Origin: Paucibacter sp. TC2R-5
Lineage (GTDB): Bacteria > Pseudomonadota > Gammaproteobacteria > Burkholderiales > Burkholderiaceae_C
Direction of reading: 5' to 3'
DNA: 64,000 nt
NCBI RefSeq assembly: GCF_025717605.1
Contig: NZ_JAJIRQ010000005.1
Coordinates: 310,001 to 374,000 of the forward strand
Numbering within the stretch: the stretch's first letter is position 1; each line of letters begins with the position of its first letter. The notes beneath the pieces were generated by a model. The model ran no database searches. It saw only the letters and a list, made by a program, of their open reading frames with translations, and was not told the origin of the DNA. This document shows positions 47,302 to 56,027 of the stretch, piece by piece. The translations under genes and the position numbers were made by a program.

Positions 47302-49881
47302 TCAGCCCTCAGCGATCCGCTTCGCCAAATGCGCTAAGGCTTCTTCGACCTGGTCGACCAGAACCAGGCATAAGTCACCGGGCTGCAAGCGCGCCAAGGC
47401 CTTATCGATGGCCACAAACTCGCCGCGGATCTCATCGATGAAGGTCGTGCGCTCCGCACCCACCAGGCCTTCGCGCAGCAAGGCCAGCACTTCGCCGTCC
47501 GAGCGGCCGCGCTGGCAGGCGTCTTCGAACAACAGCACATCATCAAAGGCGGCGCCCAAGATAACGGTCTGCTCGCGGATGTCCTCGTCGCGTCTATCTC
47601 CCGCGCCGCTGATCACGACCGAGCGGCGCTTGCCTGGCAGGGCCGCCACGGCGCTGACCAAGGCCCGCATCGCGTCGGCGTTATGGCCGTAGTCGGCGAT
47701 CACGGTGGCACCGCGATAGTCCATCACATTGAAGCGACCGGGCGCGTTGTCGGCGTCATTGGCGAAGCTGGCCAGACCACGGCGCACGGTGTCCCAGTCC
47801 AGGCCAATGCCCCAGGCGGCGGCGACCGAGGCCATCGCGTTTTCGATCTGGAAGCCGATCGCGCCATTGCGGGTGATGGGGATGTCGCGCAGCGCAATGT
47901 TCTCGCGCCATGAGCCTTGCGCGGCCACCAGCATATCGCCGTCGATATAGACACAGCGCTTGCCCTGCGCCCGGTGGGTAGCCATCAGCGGGTGGTGGCG
48001 GTCGGAAGCAAAGAAGATGATCTGGCCCGGGCAGACCTCGGCCATCTTGGCCACCACCGGGTCGGCGGCGTTCAAGACCGCATAACCCGAAGCAGCGACG
48101 TTTTGCACGATCACGCGCTTGACCAGGGCCAACTCGTCCACCGTGTTGAGGAAGTTCATGCCGAGGTGGTCGCCGGCGCCCAGATTAGTGACGACAGCCA
48201 CTTGGCAGCGATCAAAACCCAAGCCTTCACGCAGCACGCCGCCGCGCGCGGTCTCAAACACCGCAGCTTCAACGTCCGGGTGCATCAGCACATTGCGCGC
48301 GCTCTTGGGGCCCGAGCAATCGCCGCTGTCGATCTGGCGGCCGTCCACATAGACGCCGTCGGTATTGGTCATGCCGACCTTGAGCCCGCAGGTCGCGAAC
48401 AAATGGGCGATCAGGCGCGAGGTGGTGGTCTTGCCATTGGTACCGGTGACGGCGACCACTGGGATGCGACCGTCTTCGCTCTTGTGGCCATGGCCATAGA
48501 GGTGGGAGATGATGGCCTCGCCGACATTGCGGCCCTTGCCATAGCTGGGGCTCAGGTGCATGCGCAGCCCCGGTGCGGCGTTGACTTCAACCACGCCGCC
48601 ATTGATTTCTTCCAGCGGCCGCAGCACGCTCTCGGCCACCACATCGACGCCGCAGACATGCAGGCCGACCACTTGTGCGGCCGCGATTGCACGCGCCGCC
48701 ACTTCGGGGTGCACATCATCGGTGACATCGGTGGCGGTGCCGCCGGTGGATAGATTGGCGTTATTGCGCAGGATCACCCGCTGGCCCTTGGGCGGTACCG
48801 ACTCCGGGGTCAGGTCTTGCTGTACCAGGCGTGCGACGGCGATATCGTCGAAGCGAATCTTGGTCAGCGAGGTGGCGTGGCCGTCTCCGCGCTTGGGGTC
48901 GGCGTTGACCTTGTCGACCAATTGCTTGACGGTCAGCTTGCCGTCACCGATGACATGCGGCGGGTCGCGGCGGGCGGCGGCGATCAAGCGGTCACCGACC
49001 ACCAAAAGCCGGTAATCGCTGCCGGGCAGGAACTTCTCCACCATCACCTGGCCGATGTCCTCGGCGGCCTTGTAGGCGATTTCCATATGCTCGCGGGTGA
49101 CAACATTGACCGTCACGCCCTTGCCCTGGTTGCCGTCGAGTGGCTTGACGACCACCGGCAAGCCGATTTCTTCGGCCACGGCCCAGGCTTCATCGACAGA
49201 ATCCACTGGCGCGCCAATCGGCACCGGCACGCCGGCCGACTGCAAGAGCCGCTTGGAGAGGTCCTTGTCCTGCGCGATCGATTCGCTGACGGCGCTGGTC
49301 GCGTCAACCTCGGCCGCCCAGATGCGGCGCTGTTTGGCGCCCCAGCCGAACTGCACCAGGCTGCCCTGCGTCAGGCGGCGAAAGGGCACACCGCGGGCAA
49401 GCGCGGCATTGACGATGGAGCCGGTCGAGGGGCCCAGGCGCACATCCTCGTCCAGCTCGCGCAGCTGCGCCAGTGTCGCGTCGGCGTCGAAGGTGCCGCC
49501 GTCGCGGGCGGCCGCGACCAGCTTGCAGGCCTCATTGAACGCGAGGCGACCAACGTCTTCTTCGCTGTATTCGACCACCACCTGGTAGCTGCCGGCTTCC
49601 GAGGTGATGTGAGTCTGGCTAAAGGTCACCGGGCAGCCGGCTTGGGCTTGCAGGGCTAGCGTTGCCTGCTCCAAGACATGGGCCAGTGAGATTGGCGTGC
49701 GTGTGGCGCTGGCTGGACGCAGGGCGCCGATGCTGGGGAAAAGGGCGCGCAAGCGAGCCTCGAAGTCGGGCATGTCGGCGATCGACTGCTCGGCGGGTGT
49801 GCAATGCACCACAGCTTCGATGGCGGTGTGGCGGCTCCACATATTCGGGCCGCGCAGGGCGCGGGTGCGAGAGACTTCCAT
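47302..49881 (-). CDS. cphA: Cyanophycin synthetase CphA, with intact ATP-grasp and Mur-ligase domains
   Basis: An 859-residue enzyme that makes cyanophycin, a poly-Asp backbone with Arg side chains, by adding Asp then Arg. The N-terminal domain (about 1-150) lacks the canonical HxxEHxxxE: residues 68-76 read HVLEQATLA. The ATP-grasp domain (about 200-460) has VVKPLDGNQGKGV, LSTGGTATDVTDDVHP and VEVNAAPG. The Mur-ligase domain has the P-loop GTNGKTTT (480-487) and the full C-terminal lobe with VIADYGHN. So both polymerising sites seem intact but the N-terminal site does not. It follows cphA' by 44 bp. Start follows GAGGAAGA. Confidence 0.95.
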   Translation of the reverse strand: MEVSRTRALRGPNMWSRHTAIEAVVHCTPAEQSIADMPDFEARLRALFPSIGALRPASATRTPISLAHVLEQATLALQAQAGCPVTFSQTHITSEAGSYQVVVEYSEEDVGRLAFNEACKLVAAARDGGTFDADATLAQLRELDEDVRLGPSTGSIVNAALARGVPFRRLTQGSLVQFGWGAKQRRIWAAEVDATSAVSESIAQDKDLSKRLLQSAGVPVPIGAPVDSVDEAWAVAEEIGLPVVVKPLDGNQGKGVTVNVVTREHMEIAYKAAEDIGQVMVEKFLPGSDYRLLVVGDRLIAAARRDPPHVIGDGKLTVKQLVDKVNADPKRGDGHATSLTKIRFDDIAVARLVQQDLTPESVPPKGQRVILRNNANLSTGGTATDVTDDVHPEVAARAIAAAQVVGLHVCGVDVVAESVLRPLEEINGGVVEVNAAPGLRMHLSPSYGKGRNVGEAIISHLYGHGHKSEDGRIPVVAVTGTNGKTTTSRLIAHLFATCGLKVGMTNTDGVYVDGRQIDSGDCSGPKSARNVLMHPDVEAAVFETARGGVLREGLGFDRCQVAVVTNLGAGDHLGMNFLNTVDELALVKRVIVQNVAASGYAVLNAADPVVAKMAEVCPGQIIFFASDRHHPLMATHRAQGKRCVYIDGDMLVAAQGSWRENIALRDIPITRNGAIGFQIENAMASVAAAWGIGLDWDTVRRGLASFANDADNAPGRFNVMDYRGATVIADYGHNADAMRALVSAVAALPGKRRSVVISGAGDRRDEDIREQTVILGAAFDDVLLFEDACQRGRSDGEVLALLREGLVGAERTTFIDEIRGEFVAIDKALARLQPGDLCLVLVDQVEEALAHLAKRIAEG

Positions 49882-49925
49882 GGATGGTCTTCCTCGAAGA
49901 AATATTGTTTATGAGTAGCGCGTGC

Positions 49926-52115
49926 TCAGGCGGCGAGCTCAGGCACAAAGGTGTCCAGCCCGGCTGAAATCAGTTCGGGCGAGATGTTCATGGCCCAGGC
50001 GGTGGCGACGGCGCCCAGCACGGTGGCGGCATCAATTTCTGCCGCAGCGTCCATGTCGGCAGCTGCGAAGCGCCGCAGCAAGGCGTCAACATTGGCGCCG
50101 ACCGTTTCGGACTGGCCATGCGCCAGCACGGCCGCACCCCCTTGCAAAAAGACCGCCCGCCCGCCTTGTTCGCGGTGCGCGGCCAGGGCCGGCAGCGTGG
50201 CGTCCAGGGCATAGAGCACGACCTCGCCGTCGCACAGATCGCTCATCTCGACCAGCAGCGGCTCAGCCGCATTGAGCACCGCAGCGCCTTCGCCCAAGAC
50301 CACATCGACTTGCGTGCGCAAGACCTTGAAGAGCTGGTCCGGGTTCATCACGTCGAACTCGGCCAAGCCTTCGATGCCGCCCATATCGGTGACCAAGCCA
50401 ACTTGGCAGCGGTCATAGGACAGACCGTCACGCAAAATCGCCTCGGCGTTATTTTCAATCACCACCGCGTCGACGCCGCGATTCATCAGCAAACGGTGGG
50501 CAGCGTCCCAACGCACGCTGCTCTTGCGTTCCACGCGGCGGGTGCCGAGGAACAAACCGTTGCGGCAGGCCAGGCCCACATGGCGGCCGTTCAGATGCAA
50601 GAGCCAGGCCACCAGGCGCGAGATCGTGTGGGTGCCGCGCGAGCCGGCCACGCCGACGATGGGGATGCGGCCGGTTTCGTCTTCGGCAAACAGGTGGTCG
50701 ATGATGGCCTTGCCAACCGGCTGGGGCATGCCCTCGGCGGGCTTCAGATGCATCAGCAGGCCGGGCCCGGCGTTGACCTCCACAATCGCGCCGCCTTGTT
50801 CGGCCAGCGGTCTGCCGATGCTCTCTGCGACCAGGTCAACACCGGCGATGTCCAGGCCGATCACACGCGCAGCCAGGCTGACGGCATGGGCCACATCGGG
50901 GTGGACCTCGTCGGTGCAGTCAATCGAGACATTGCCGTTGCGTTGAATCATCACCTGGCGACCGGCCTCCGGCACGCCGTCGATCTGCAAGCCTTGCCGC
51001 TCCAAGTCGAGGGCGATCACCGAGTCTTCCAGCACATTGATGCGGTTGAGCGGGAACTCTTCGGTCAAGCCGCGGCGCGGGTCGTTATTGATCTGCGAAT
51101 CGATCAGCTGAATGACGGTTTGCACACCGTCACCGGTGACATAGGCCACCTCGCCACGCGCGGCTGCCACGACCCGCCCGCCCACCACCAGCAGGCGATG
51201 CTCATTGCCGGGGATGTAGCGCTCGACCAGCACCTCGCTGCCGTGCTGTTCGGCCAAAGCGAAGGCTGCCATCACATCGGGGCGGGTTTTCAGATCCAGC
51301 GTGACACCGCGGCCGTGGTTGCCATCCGATGGTTTGACGACGACCGGCAGGCCGAGATCCTCGGCCGCTTCCCAGGCTGCTTCGGCGGTTTTGACGGCCA
51401 CGCCTTCCGGCACCGGCACGCCAACGGCCTTCAGCAGCGATTTGGTCAGGTCTTTGTCGCCGGCAATGCCTTCGGCGATCGCGCTGGTCATATCGGTCTC
51501 GGCCGTCCAGATGCGACGTTGGCGCGCACCGTGGCCCAGTTGCACCAGATTGCCGTCGTTCAGGCGGATGTGCGGGATGCGGCGGTCGGTCGCGGCGGCG
51601 ACGATGGCGGCCGTCGAGGGGCCGAGATAGCAGTCGTCGAGCTTGTCGCGCACGCGCGCCACGGCTGCATTGACATCGAAGGCTTCGTCATTGATGGTGG
51701 CCATCAGCAAGGCGTGGCCCTCGGCCAGGGCGCTGCGGGCCACATGTTCGTCGCGGGCCCGGAACACCATGCGGTAGACGCCGCGCTGGCTGGTCGAGCG
51801 GGTCTGGCCGAAGCCGGTCGGCATGCCGGCCAGGTTCAGCAACTCGATCACGATGTGTTCCAAGACATGGCCGCACCAGGTGCCTTCGACCAGGCGCTGC
51901 AAAAAGCCGCCGCGCTCGCCAACGCCGCAGTGATGCTCGATCAGCGCCGGCAAAGCCTTGGTGATGCGGTCGGTGAAGCCGTCCAGCAGATTGGTGGGCC
52001 AGTCTTCCAACTCGCCCAAATCCAGCCAGACTTCCAGCACGGGACGGTAGGTCCACATATTGGGGCCGCGCAAATAATTGATGCGCAGCAGCTTGATGTC
52101 TTCTTTCTTGCTCAT
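49926..52115 (-). CDS. cphA': Second cyanophycin synthetase CphA', truncated Mur-ligase
   Basis: A 729-residue paralog. The N-terminal domain has HVLEHIVIE (residues 83-91), the full HxxEHxxxE pattern, plus ERGGFLQRLVEGTW. The ATP-grasp domain has VVKPSDGNHGRGV and VEVNAGPG, but the equivalent of LSTGGTATD is shortened to VSIDCTDEVHP. The Mur-like domain P-loop is GSRGTHT (491-497), with Thr for the invariant Lys, and the protein ends without the C-terminal lobe. So polymerising activity is doubtful. Betaproteobacteria such as Cupriavidus carry a cphA' beside cphA; its role is not settled. It is first in the operon, divergent from the ABC transporter. Confidence 0.93.
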   Translation of the reverse strand: MSKKEDIKLLRINYLRGPNMWTYRPVLEVWLDLGELEDWPTNLLDGFTDRITKALPALIEHHCGVGERGGFLQRLVEGTWCGHVLEHIVIELLNLAGMPTGFGQTRSTSQRGVYRMVFRARDEHVARSALAEGHALLMATINDEAFDVNAAVARVRDKLDDCYLGPSTAAIVAAATDRRIPHIRLNDGNLVQLGHGARQRRIWTAETDMTSAIAEGIAGDKDLTKSLLKAVGVPVPEGVAVKTAEAAWEAAEDLGLPVVVKPSDGNHGRGVTLDLKTRPDVMAAFALAEQHGSEVLVERYIPGNEHRLLVVGGRVVAAARGEVAYVTGDGVQTVIQLIDSQINNDPRRGLTEEFPLNRINVLEDSVIALDLERQGLQIDGVPEAGRQVMIQRNGNVSIDCTDEVHPDVAHAVSLAARVIGLDIAGVDLVAESIGRPLAEQGGAIVEVNAGPGLLMHLKPAEGMPQPVGKAIIDHLFAEDETGRIPIVGVAGSRGTHTISRLVAWLLHLNGRHVGLACRNGLFLGTRRVERKSSVRWDAAHRLLMNRGVDAVVIENNAEAILRDGLSYDRCQVGLVTDMGGIEGLAEFDVMNPDQLFKVLRTQVDVVLGEGAAVLNAAEPLLVEMSDLCDGEVVLYALDATLPALAAHREQGGRAVFLQGGAAVLAHGQSETVGANVDALLRRFAAADMDAAAEIDAATVLGAVATAWAMNISPELISAGLDTFVPELAA

Positions 52116-52407
52116 GTGTGACGAGGAGGTTGAGGGCTGTTTGGGAGCCTGATGCAGGGAGGCGGATTTCTAAACTGGCGCAATTGTGCGCCCTTTGCGG
52201 CTGGCTTTGAGGCAGGCTTTGAGGTGCAGGGCCGAGCTGTCGCTAATGCAGGGTTTGAGCAACGTTTGAGCAAGGCTTGGCTCGCGCCGTGGCGTCAATG
52301 TGCATGAATTCGGCATTGCCTTGGTGGCGATGAGTGAAAATCCGGACTTGAACCTTGCCGGAGACCCCTTTTGAGGTGGCCGGCCTATAAATAGATTGCG
52401 TCATCAC

Positions 52408-54690
52408 ATGTCAGTTGAAGTGTCTGTGCAGCACCCCCGATGGCCCGAAGTCCAAGCGCGATTGCTGCCGCATGAGAACGTGCTGGCCCCGCTGGAGGTT
52501 GACCTGGACTCGCAATGCCGTTTCGCGCGCGGTCTGCTGGTCTTGACATCGCAGCGTCTGCTGGCCTGGGATCCGGCCAGCGCCCAATGGTCAGACTGGC
52601 CGCTGACGGCCGATTTGCGCATGCAGATCTCGGACCATGCCGGCGTCGGCTCGCTGGAACTGCTCAACGCCGAACGGCGCTTGGGGCTGTGGCGCTTCAC
52701 ATTACAAATGAATCTGCAGGCGCAGCGCTGGCAAGATTTGTTCACTCGGCGTATCGAGTCGGGCGGGGTGCAAGAACAGGCTCAAGTCGAGGAAGCGGAG
52801 TATTGCCCCAGTTGCCAAGCCCCGCTGCCGCCGGAGAGTGAGGAATGCCCGGCCTGCGCGCGCGAACTGCACACGCCGCCGTCGACCTGGGTGCTGCTGC
52901 GCCTGGCGCGTTTTGCCAAACCTTACCAAGGTCAACTCTTGCTGGGCTTTTTGCTGATGCTGGGTTCCACCGGCGCCACGCTGGTGGCACCGTACCTGAG
53001 CATTCCGCTGATGGACAAGGTCTTGATCCCCTTCCAGGCCGGCCACAAGATCGATCCCTATCTGGTGGCGCTGATTCTGAGCGGCTTGTTCGGCGCATCC
53101 CTGGTGTCTTGGTTGCTGGGCTGGGCCAAGACCTATATCTTGGCCTTGGCCTCGGAGCGTATTGCCGCCGACCTGCGCACCGCGACCTTCGAGCATTTGC
53201 TCAGCCTGTCGCTGGAGTATTTCGGCAACAAGCGCACGGGAGACTTGATGTCGCGCATCGGCTCCGAGACCGACCGCATCAGCGTGTTTTTGTCCTTGCA
53301 TGCGCTGGACTTCATCACCGACGTCTTGATGCTCTTGATGACGGCGACGATTTTGTTCTCGATCAACCCCTGGCTGGCGCTGGTCACCTTGGTGCCGCTG
53401 CCGTTCATTTCCTGGATGATTCACTTGGTGCGCGACCGTCTGCGGACCGGCTTCGAGAAGATCGACCGGGTTTGGGGCGAAGTCACCTCGGTGCTGGCCG
53501 ACACCATCCCCGGCGTGCGCGTGGTCAAGGCCTTTGCGCAAGAAAAGCGCGAGGCGCAGCGTTTCCGCGAGGCCAATGCCAATAACCTCAAGATCAATGA
53601 CAAGCTGAACAAGACCTGGAGCTTGTTCGGCCCGACGGTATCGCTGCTGACCGAGTTCGGCTTGCTGGTGGTGTGGGCCTTCGGTATCTATCTGGTGTCC
53701 AAGCAGGAGATCACGGTCGGTATCTTGACCGCCTTCATTGCCTATATCGGCCGCTTTTATGGGCGTATGGATTCGATGAGCCGTATCGTCTCGGTGACGC
53801 AAAAAGCGGCTGCCGGCGCCAAGCGCATCTTCGACATCCTCGATCACCAATCGAATGTGCCCGACCCGGTCAATCCGACGCCGCTGCACAACTGCAAGGG
53901 CGGCATACAGATTCAAGACATCGGCTTCCGCTACGGCAACCGGGCGGTGATTCGCGGCCTGTCCCTGGACATCAAGCCGGGCGAGATGATTGGCTTGGTC
54001 GGCCACAGCGGTTCGGGCAAGAGCACGCTGGTCAACTTGATTTGCCGTTTTTATGACGTCACCGAAGGCGGCATCCGCGTTGACGGGATTGATTTGCGCC
54101 GCATCGGCGTAGCCGATTACCGTCGCCATATCGGCTTGGTTCTGCAGGAGCCGTTTTTGTTTTTCGGCACGATTGCCGAGAACATCGCCTACGGCAAGCC
54201 CGAAGCGTCGCGGGCCGAAATCGTCGCCGCCGCGCGTGCCGCTCATGCGCATGAGTTCATCTTGCGCCTGCCGCAGGGCTATGACTCGCTGGTCGGCGAG
54301 CGGGGTCAGGGCTTGAGCGGCGGTGAGCGCCAGCGCATCTCGATCGCACGCGCTTTGCTGATTGATCCGCGCATCTTGATCCTCGATGAGGCCACGTCCT
54401 CGGTCGACACCGAGACCGAAAAAGAAATCCAAAAGGCGCTGGACAACTTGGTCAAGGGCCGCACGACGATTGCGATCGCCCACCGCTTGTCGACTCTGCG
54501 CAAGGCCGACCGGCTGGTGGTGATGGATCGCGGGCAGGTAGTCGAAGAAGGCCCGCACGACGTTTTGATGGAAAAGCGCGGCGCTTACTGGCGCTTGTAT
54601 GAGGCGCAGGTGCGCAGGGTGGACGCCGATGGTGAGCAAGTGTTGCCGATGCTGCCGCCGAATTTGAATGCACACACGGCGCAGCAATGA
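52408..54690 (+). CDS. Cyanophycin-associated ABC exporter with PH-like and zinc-ribbon N-terminus
   Basis: A 760-residue fused permease-ATPase of exporter type. The N-terminal region (about 1-118) resembles a PH-like domain, then a zinc ribbon CPSCQAPLPPESEECPAC (Cys 133, 136, 147, 150). Six transmembrane helices follow (about 170-460). The ATPase has GHSGSGKST (about 532), LSGGERQR and ILDEATS. The N-terminal additions are unusual for exporters. Such genes beside cphA are annotated as cyanophycin metabolism-associated; substrate unknown. It is divergent from cphA' and followed by DUF1854. The start is ATG 52408 rather than TTG 52396. Confidence 0.9.
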   Translation: MSVEVSVQHPRWPEVQARLLPHENVLAPLEVDLDSQCRFARGLLVLTSQRLLAWDPASAQWSDWPLTADLRMQISDHAGVGSLELLNAERRLGLWRFTLQMNLQAQRWQDLFTRRIESGGVQEQAQVEEAEYCPSCQAPLPPESEECPACARELHTPPSTWVLLRLARFAKPYQGQLLLGFLLMLGSTGATLVAPYLSIPLMDKVLIPFQAGHKIDPYLVALILSGLFGASLVSWLLGWAKTYILALASERIAADLRTATFEHLLSLSLEYFGNKRTGDLMSRIGSETDRISVFLSLHALDFITDVLMLLMTATILFSINPWLALVTLVPLPFISWMIHLVRDRLRTGFEKIDRVWGEVTSVLADTIPGVRVVKAFAQEKREAQRFREANANNLKINDKLNKTWSLFGPTVSLLTEFGLLVVWAFGIYLVSKQEITVGILTAFIAYIGRFYGRMDSMSRIVSVTQKAAAGAKRIFDILDHQSNVPDPVNPTPLHNCKGGIQIQDIGFRYGNRAVIRGLSLDIKPGEMIGLVGHSGSGKSTLVNLICRFYDVTEGGIRVDGIDLRRIGVADYRRHIGLVLQEPFLFFGTIAENIAYGKPEASRAEIVAAARAAHAHEFILRLPQGYDSLVGERGQGLSGGERQRISIARALLIDPRILILDEATSSVDTETEKEIQKALDNLVKGRTTIAIAHRLSTLRKADRLVVMDRGQVVEEGPHDVLMEKRGAYWRLYEAQVRRVDADGEQVLPMLPPNLNAHTAQQ

Positions 54691-54707
54691 GGACGAGCGA
54701 GAAGACC

Positions 54708-55175
54708 ATGAGCAGCAATCTGAACCTGTCACGCAACGCCTTTGGCCGCCTATTGCTGACCGATGCGCAGGGCCGTGAGCATGCCGACATCAGCGTCGTG
54801 CGGGCTCATCCAATTTCGGCGCCGGATGAGGGTGTGTCCTTGATCGGCAGCGATGGCCATGAATTGGCCTGGATCGAAGACCTGGCCGCCTTGCCTGTGG
54901 CCCAGCGCGAGTTGTTGACGGCCGAGTTGGCGAGTCGCGATTTCATGCCGACGATTCAGCACATCACAGCGGTGTCCACCTTCTCCACGCCCAGCCAATG
55001 GACGGTCGCGACCGACCGCGGCGAAACGGTCTTCATCTTGAAGACCGAAGAAGACATTCGCCGCCTGCCGGACGGCCGCTTGTTGATCGCCAGCAGCCAT
55101 GGCCTGCAACTGATGATTCAGGATCGCTTCGCGCTCGACCGGGCTTCGCGCAAGTTCCTGGAGCGCTTTCTCTGA
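54708..55175 (+). CDS. Cyanophycin-associated DUF1854 protein
   Basis: A 155-residue protein (162 if ATG 54687, which overlaps the ABC stop, is used). NAFGRLLLTDAQGREHADISVVRAHPISAPDEGVSL begins DUF1854, and LRFLPTxxxI-like FMPTIQHITAVSTFSTPSQWTVATDRG and FILKTEEDIRRLPDGRLLIAS are family segments. No membrane helix is seen. The family occurs next to a cphA-linked ABC transporter, suggesting that it binds or regulates the transporter. Its last 20 codons recur as a degenerate copy at 57116-57169. Confidence 0.87.
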   Translation: MSSNLNLSRNAFGRLLLTDAQGREHADISVVRAHPISAPDEGVSLIGSDGHELAWIEDLAALPVAQRELLTAELASRDFMPTIQHITAVSTFSTPSQWTVATDRGETVFILKTEEDIRRLPDGRLLIASSHGLQLMIQDRFALDRASRKFLERFL

Positions 55176-55202: not shown

Positions 55203-56027
55203 TCAGGCCTTGCGTCGGCGTTGCTGCGCTGCACCGGCTACGCAAGTCAAGCCTGCCAGCAGCATCGCCCATGAGGCTGCTTCCGGCACCGGGCTCACAC
55301 CCGGGCTGAAAATGAAGTGGCCGCCCGCCGGAGCCGCGCCGCTGACCGCAAAGCTCGGGTCCAGCACGGACGAAGCCAAACCGATGGCTGTTCCGTTGTT
55401 CGAGAACGCGTTTGCTTCGGCATAGAGCTGCATTTGGACGGTGTAAACCGTGTTTTGCCGCAAATTGACGCTGAAGGGTTGAATCGGCAAAGATGGAGTG
55501 CCGCCGCAGGGTTGGTAGGCGGCCGATGTGCTGGCGCTGCTGCAGTGGTAGCCGGTGTACACCGTATCCGATGCCGGGCCTGTCAGCGACAGCTTGCTCC
55601 AGGTATAGCTGCGGTAATAACCCCCTGATGGTGCGGAGCCTTGCGCGAGCAAATTGTCGAACGCCTGCACGCTGACGTTCAGCCAGTCATGGCTGCCGGT
55701 CGGATTGATGTACGCGAGTTGGTAACTCAGCTTGTTGCTGGCAGACACATAGCCGGTGCTGCCTGTTTGCACCTCGGCGGTGATCGTGGGCGACTGGCCC
55801 AGCACGGTGCTGACGCTGCCCCGGCTGCCGTTGACCGAGGACACGGCAGAAAAAGAGCCGGTGCTGTAGTTCCAAAAGGTGTCGCCATAGGGTTCATCGG
55901 GCCGCACGGACTGAATCAGGCTTGGATCGGCCAAGGTGATGGCGTGGCTTGGGCCTGCTTGACTAAGGGCAAGGCTAGCGGTGAAAGCGGTCGCTAAGGT
56001 GGCGCGCAGCTGTGGATGGCTTGACAT
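55203..56027 (-). CDS. Exported protein with PEP-CTERM-like sorting signal
   Basis: A 274-residue protein. The signal peptide ends near SHAIT, and the C-terminus has VPEAASWAMLLAGLTCVAGA followed by RRRKA, a PEP-CTERM signal with PEA in place of the usual PEP. Exosortase systems use this for processing and export in bacteria that make exopolysaccharide. The middle region is beta-rich and unrecognised, with Gly/Ser/Tyr abundance. The start follows GGAG. It is divergent from the LuxR gene 97 bp away. Confidence 0.8.
   Translation of the reverse strand: MSSHPQLRATLATAFTASLALSQAGPSHAITLADPSLIQSVRPDEPYGDTFWNYSTGSFSAVSSVNGSRGSVSTVLGQSPTITAEVQTGSTGYVSASNKLSYQLAYINPTGSHDWLNVSVQAFDNLLAQGSAPSGGYYRSYTWSKLSLTGPASDTVYTGYHCSSASTSAAYQPCGGTPSLPIQPFSVNLRQNTVYTVQMQLYAEANAFSNNGTAIGLASSVLDPSFAVSGAAPAGGHFIFSPGVSPVPEAASWAMLLAGLTCVAGAAQQRRRKA

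Follow-up and report, generated by a model that had tools for sequence, protein, structure and literature searches.

Complementary loss of predicted active sites in a tandem pair of cyanophycin synthetase-like proteins from Burkholderiales

Cyanophycin synthetase 1 (CphA1) can combine three active sites in one chain, an N-site that cuts cyanophycin into primers, a G-site that adds aspartate, and an M-site that adds arginine, and the locus described here raises the question of how these activities are distributed when two CphA1-like proteins are encoded side by side. In Paucibacter sp. TC2R-5, the genes for a CphA1-like protein, CphA', and for its longer partner, CphA, form such a pair within a 64,000-nucleotide stretch of contig NZ_JAJIRQ010000005.1 (positions 310,001 to 374,000 of the forward strand; hereafter, the window). 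The names cphA and cphA' are reportedly those used in Fueser and Steinbuechel 2007 and Adames 2013, and the cphA genes of R. eutropha are presumably a pair of the same kind. Comparison with published structures and related loci leads us to consider it probable, at about 0.72, that a three-site CphA1 was duplicated and split, CphA' being a candidate trans-acting endo-cyanophycinase that would prime CphA. An earlier note on the window, made from the sequence alone, had proposed that CphA' either makes primers or acts structurally while CphA polymerizes, possibly with both in a hetero-oligomer. The primer-making role is well supported by comparison, namely, by the match to the residues of a published site, the invariance of these residues in 210 proteins, the reciprocal loss in 201 partners, and the persistence of the N-site beyond the other sites, whereas a structural role leaves the invariance unexplained. 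The genes and the features on which the comparison rests are as follows.

49926..52115, minus strand: cphA', encoding a CphA1-like protein of 729 amino acids with the N domain intact, a G domain without aspartate-binding residues, and an M domain without the P-loop Lys and the lid
47302..49881, minus strand: cphA, encoding the 859-amino-acid partner, predicted to polymerize, with G and M residues intact except for His267 replaced by Gln, and with the N-site apparently lost
49882..49925, minus strand: intergenic gap of 44 nt between cphA' and the downstream cphA, both genes on the same strand
51843..51935, minus strand: N-site of CphA', residues 61-91 (H61, C63, F71, R74, H83, E86, H87, E91), by alignment to 7LG5
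50919..50942, minus strand: five-residue deletion, by alignment, in the CphA' G-omega loop that holds aspartate (N394-S396 region of TeCphA1)
50625..50645, minus strand: M-domain P-loop of CphA', GSRGTHT (residues 491-497), catalytic Lys gone
50304..50306, minus strand: D604 of CphA', equivalent by alignment register to M-domain E607 of SuCphA1
49666..49680, minus strand: degenerate N-site of CphA, HVLEQ (residues 68-72), with the His57, Cys59, Phe67, and Arg70 positions absent
49126..49128, minus strand: Gln252 of CphA, by alignment at the ATP-grasp P-loop position of SuCphA1 His267

The coordinates, frames, and motifs that the earlier note had assigned to both proteins were reproduced, including HVLEHIVIE at residues 83-91 and the P-loop GSRGTHT in CphA', and GTNGKTTT, LSTGGTATDVTDDVHP, and HVLEQATLA (starting at residue 68 by hand count) in CphA. 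The deletion it had placed in the ATP-grasp loop of CphA' appears in the alignment as a five-residue gap opposite the NLSTGGTA loop of CphA, and the Mur-ligase C-terminal lobe, which it had found missing from CphA', leaves no Mur_ligase_M or Mur_ligase_C match in Pfam. A search of the window's assembly yielded no further CphA-family gene of comparable score.

To these two proteins, we added relatives from 80 named loci, retrieved with CphA' as the query and therefore containing CphA' by construction, and from draws on the order, class, and phylum, which may share genomes with the named loci. Within the order, 148 genomes had a CphA match, and 131 of these were examined (G000, 118 from the strong end of the matches, and 12 from the weak end; 17 were left out). 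The 523 protein matches comprised 433 distinct sequences. Fragments shorter than 600 amino acids and loci repeating the window were dropped, and 428 proteins, including the two window proteins, were aligned. The alignment and the tree contain 200 CphA' sequences, and a recount of the N-site covers 210, among them one with an internal deletion (G078).

The published third site of CphA1 is a Cx19HxxEH metal motif (PMC9262961; articles identified by such numbers are cited from the portions of their text that were available). CphA' carries this motif exactly (C63, 19 residues, H83xxE86H87), and in the alignment to 7LG5, its H61, C63, F71, R74, H83, E86, H87, and E91 correspond to H57, C59, F67, R70, H79, E82, H83, and E87 of SuCphA1. 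The earlier note had named one outcome that would undo its proposal, HxxEH not being the metal site; with the alignment to the solved structure, that outcome did not occur. All eight residues and the motif are invariant in 210/210 distinct CphA', as are the equivalents of SuCphA1 Y110, a published substrate contact, and of the nearby R102. E607 of SuCphA1, an M-domain residue that contacts cyanophycin bound at the N-site, is replaced by Asp in 210/210 CphA' and by Gln in 157/201 paired CphA. The eight residues, set beforehand, all fall among the 22 invariant positions of the 158 in the N domain of 200 CphA' (hypergeometric P = 4e-8), which, together with the 210/210 invariance, rules out a chance motif; an invariant N-site in 210 distinct copies also rules out CphA' as a pseudogene. 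On the CphA' tree, the four motif residues were never lost; Dollo counting, which inflates such numbers, gives 27 losses for the M-domain P-loop Lys and 24 for the lid His.

The N-site of CphA shows the opposite. The H57-R70 segment of SuCphA1 is missing from CphA, which carries Gln at the H83 position, and Cx19HxxEH was found in 0/201 paired CphA, three of which retain HxxEH without the Cys. Conversely, R309, R323, N394, S396, E450, N452, R458, and five M-domain residues are kept in 201/201 paired CphA, and the window CphA, which has R309, R323, N394, S396, R458, and the M-site K, T, E, D, and H, passes TIGR02068 (960 bits, cut-off 850). The departure is at the ATP-grasp His267 position, occupied by Gln in 197/201 paired CphA and by His in 21/21 three-site CphA1; SuCphA1, TeCphA1, and CphA' all have His there.

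The residues followed in the G and M domains were taken from PMC9427784 and PMC9262961. None of the 200 CphA' retains R323, S396, or R458, the contacts to aspartate, and the Ser396 position is gapped in 200/200. K220, K261, R309, and N452 are kept in 200/200, E450 in 199/200, and His267 in 196/200; K220, K261, E450, and N452 we take to be the usual ATP-grasp positions. Because its ATP-binding residues are kept, the G domain of CphA' is not obviously inactive. The M domain is more degraded, with the P-loop Lys kept in 38/200 CphA' and the lid His in 13/200, three of these being short proteins that are probably misaligned; among the 11 CphA' longer than 800 amino acids, the five M-core residues are kept in 11/11 and both lid positions in 8. 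The window CphA' passes NF010623 (1012 bits, cut-off 877) and scores below the CphA equivalog TIGR02068 (691 bits, cut-off 850), and what would mark a complete synthetase is missing from it: R323, the G-omega loop, and R458; the P-loop Lys and the Mur ligase lid; and a score over the TIGR02068 cut-off. The near-invariance of the ATP-grasp residues in the G domain (residues about 166-480), despite the lost aspartate pocket, is a separate observation that primer-making does not explain.

An AlphaFold model of CphA', built with 35 sequences of its own family, has a mean predicted local distance difference test (pLDDT) score of 87.4, with the N-domain blocks mostly above 90, the Cys block (61-70) at 75, and the G-domain lid loop weakest; H83-E91 lie on a predicted helix (81-95). 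The model matches CphA1 structures with template modeling (TM) scores, relative to the query, of 0.79-0.88, and CphA2 structures with 0.58-0.64. CphA2 (7TA5, 8FXH) resembles CphA' in that both lack the M-domain P-loop and lid and R458. However, CphA2 has no N-site and keeps R323 and the G-omega loop, with Lys at position 267 and an aromatic residue at 458, a pattern that CphA' does not match and, at the N-site, R323, and the loop, reverses. This opposite G-domain pattern and the weaker fold match rule out CphA' as a CphA2 ortholog.

In the tree, with distant CphA-like proteins from G383, G203, and G013 as the outgroup, the 200 CphA' are monophyletic (support 1.0), and so is their union with the 201 paired CphA (support 1.0), making the two sister clades. 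Next outside this union are three CphA with degenerate N-sites (L269 twice and L270), followed by 21 three-site CphA1, in which the eight N-site residues are found in 20/21 (one has Leu for F67), the motif, its spacing ranging from 18 to 22, in 21/21, and the examined residues of G and M in 21/21, the last lid position varying. The N-site is likewise complete, at all eight positions, in four further CphA1 from the class and phylum draws. L316 (G863:C9), a three-site CphA1 with Gln at 267, is sister to CphA' (0.949); it lies near a contig end in a genome that is 8% contaminated.

Invariant columns number 18 in CphA' versus 0 in CphA among the 147 shared N-domain columns, 7 versus 45 among 226 in the M domain, and 37 versus 40 among 312 in the G domain. 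Mean pairwise identity in 60 loci sampled from 195 is 0.688 for CphA' versus 0.719 for CphA in the G domain and 0.501 versus 0.704 in the M domain. Judged from these residue patterns, complementary loss of active sites in CphA' and CphA is a lineage-wide feature of the pair, and it likely arose by one duplication followed by the loss of different sites in each copy.

A family outside the order (f81) shows how far CphA' can erode. CphA' is present in 12/36 of its genomes, and in 12/12 of these proteins His267 is lost (10 Arg, 1 Leu, 1 Ala) and so is the M-domain P-loop Lys; G078 also lacks about 60 G-domain residues and has DLT in place of EVN. None of the 12, G078 included, has a change at the eight N-site residues. 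At the level of predicted sites, this erosion shows that the N-site is the one kept longest.

The sequence of events that we envisage would begin with the tandem duplication of an ancestral CphA1 with all three activities. The CphA copy would have retained G and M and lost N, and the CphA' copy would have retained N and lost the aspartate pocket of G and, later, in most lineages, M, apparently in many separate losses. CphA would slowly make rare long chains, CphA' would cut these chains in trans, and the resulting primers would prime CphA and allow fast accumulation.

Hydrolysis and priming by CphA' are proposed by analogy with the published work on SuCphA1 (Synechocystis UTEX2470, 7LG5/7TXV), a primer-independent enzyme that the pair resembles in fold, in the eight N-site residues and Cx19HxxEH spacing of CphA', and in the M and, except for His267, G residues of CphA. 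SuCphA1 has its three sites in one chain, whereas the pair would have N on CphA' and G and M on CphA. The primer-dependent TmCphA1 (Tatumella) is like CphA in that G and M are intact and the N-site is gone, but it retains the ATP-grasp His267 where CphA has Gln. SuCphA1 with both G and M killed renders TmCphA1 primer-independent in trans (PMC9262961), and an engineered SuCphA1 heterodimer of an N-G+M+ and an N+G-M- protomer, which, judging by the residues examined here, has the same distribution of sites as the cphA'-cphA pair, works according to the text of that article, although a figure legend in it names another mutant combination. The engineered heterodimer was obtained by mutating one gene, whereas the pair would have come from duplication and loss.

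Several observations weigh against this interpretation. The G domain of CphA' stays well conserved, which a pure N-site function does not require, and even in f81 K261 and R309 are kept in 12/12 CphA', N452 in 11/12, and E450 in 10/12. Support for the monophyly of the 201 paired CphA is only 0.579. Mean N-domain identity in the 60 sampled loci is barely higher in CphA' (0.633) than in CphA (0.612); because this whole-domain difference is small, the conservation signal is located in the N-site itself. The Gln at position 267 means that CphA itself could be weak, because the His267 Ala mutant has decreased activity in two CphA1s (PMC9427784); the three-site L316, which also has Gln at 267, counts against this concern. 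In the SuCphA1 experiments, placing the sites on separate protomers of a heterodimer cost some primer-free activity relative to the all-in-one enzyme (PMC9262961). Finally, wild-type R. eutropha has two CphA homologs, and no cyanophycin has been observed in it (PMC11362209, citing Adames 2013).

The arrangement of the two genes is nearly constant. cphA' is followed by cphA on the same strand in 80/80 named loci and 116/118 loci from the order, that is, in 196/198, the other two stopping at a contig edge. In the 196 tandem loci, cphA' and cphA are separated by a median of approximately 42-43 nt, the shortest spacing being a 4-nt overlap. In G397, CphA' occurs without CphA and the contig ends 566 bases downstream; in G374 and G416, CphA lies at a contig end, and both genomes have a second CphA match. 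Upstream and divergent from the pair are two further genes.

52396..54690, plus strand: CphA-associated ATP-binding cassette (ABC) transporter, divergent from cphA'-cphA (NF052233, 1374 bits, cut-off 880)
54687..55175, plus strand: CphA-associated DUF1854 protein (NF052234, 221 bits, cut-off 150)

Both are found divergently upstream in 71/71 named loci of at least 13 kb (nine shorter loci were not counted). Beyond them, the window encodes, at 55203-56027 on the minus strand, a protein whose C-terminus resembles, by eye, a PEP-CTERM sorting signal. Companion genes were searched for in 80 genomes, 58 with the pair (six more pair genomes lay outside this set) and 22 in which CphA1 occurs without CphA'; these genomes are related, and the counts are not independent events. 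DUF1854 was found in 58/58 pair genomes versus 0/22 of the others, and a strong CphB match (>200 bits, a threshold set here) in 7/58 versus 22/22. From these distributions, there seem to be two modules, one of cphA1 and cphB and the other of cphA'-cphA, the ABC transporter, and DUF1854.

The scarcity of CphB bears on the best surviving alternative, in which CphA' would be mainly an intracellular depolymerase whose N-site, on a separately expressed protein, starts the mobilization of stored cyanophycin, with priming secondary. Any cyanophycinase over the curated cut-off was found in 11/58 pair genomes versus 22/22 of those with CphA1 and no CphA'; a recognizable cyanophycinase was reported in 2.8% of 903 betaproteobacterial genomes with CphA1 (PMC10206079); and PMC10687191, in the portion available, leaves as a question the role of a two-cphA cluster without cphB. 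Nevertheless, we regard this alternative as unlikely: the N-site, as published, works slowly, its products being mainly tetramers rather than dipeptides (PMC9262961), the position of cphA' directly upstream of a synthetase would suit priming, and the window's own genome, one of the 11, carries cyanophycinase-family genes above the cut-off at two other places (C2:94415 and C23:128321). These two genes (L314 and L315) are far from cphA, with frames of 570 and 433 residues and starts that, by eye, resemble signal peptides. A combination of the two interpretations is possible though doubtful, with the pair being a split primer-maker and polymerase and CphA', where cyanophycinase has been lost, also serving as the depolymerase, the ratio of the two proteins switching between nitrogen storage and mobilization.

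The conserved G domain of CphA' suggests a further alternative, a ligase for another amine, which would join an ATP-activated chain end to the beta-Asp-Arg dipeptide, as in CphA2, or to a cap, instead of free aspartate. The ATP and chain-end residues kept in the 200 CphA' while R323, S396, and R458 are all gone are consistent with this, and CphA2 likewise lacks the M-domain P-loop and lid (PMC9427784) and R458. However, the opposite pattern in 7TA5 and 8FXH, which retain both R323 and the loop, with Lys in place of His267, makes such an activity quite improbable, and the f81 proteins, with His267 lost in 12/12 and, in G078, a broken ATP-grasp core, imply that ligase activity is not needed wherever CphA' is kept. 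In the least probable alternative, CphA' would have no catalytic role and would serve CphA as a scaffold or chain anchor. This fits the overall CphA1 fold retained in the model, the conserved G domain, and the tandem linkage, but is hardly credible, because it leaves unexplained why the metal ligands, the general base, and the substrate contacts are invariant in 210/210 CphA' next to 0/147 invariant N-domain columns in CphA.

A gene pair apparently of this type has been described before as the two-copy "Group 1" cluster (PMC10687191), which, likened here by its description, has neighboring cphA genes, an ABC transporter, and no cphB; the portion of that article available treats both genes as copies of cphA and describes no division of active sites. 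The two cphA copies of the activated-sludge cluster are evenly expressed in Accumulibacter (PMC10687191), and the available portion of PMC8050183 contains nothing on the gene pair. In the open-access literature, to which the search was largely confined with most subscription papers outside its scope, the two-copy cluster is described and a split of the primer-making and synthetic sites between two proteins is not.

Where a single CphA1 both synthesizes and hydrolyzes, protein levels offer no means of adjusting the balance between the two (PMC9262961). If the proposed split of a three-site CphA1 is correct, the pair would remove this limit, and priming and building could be tuned separately. 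It would also be a case of division of labor documented from three-site relatives, through intermediates both full-length and truncated, to the end states, and it might explain in a simple way why such a CphA, if expressed without its partner, could appear inactive or in need of primer. Where CphB is absent, the activity that cuts cyanophycin is missing, and CphA', on the residues it retains, is a candidate for it; the bacteria concerned perhaps include wastewater bacteria considered for nitrogen recovery.

The survey also turned up CphA-related genes outside the pair. The CphA next outside the union of CphA' and paired CphA (L269 from G421 and L270 from G730) form a third lineage, whose genes share a contig with a strong CphB match; the genomes concerned carry the pair as well. 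L269 contains two such genes on opposite strands. A second, partial match to CphA occurs in G149 and G450, and G577 is present as fragments. L108 and L283 are CphA-like proteins (638 and 717 amino acids after trimming) with ATP-grasp and Mur-like parts, without the N-site motif and without the lid. In L308 and L309 (G950 and G834), a three-site CphA1 is accompanied by a second frame of 550-588 residues that has a Mur-ligase-like P-loop and resembles the M domain of CphA.

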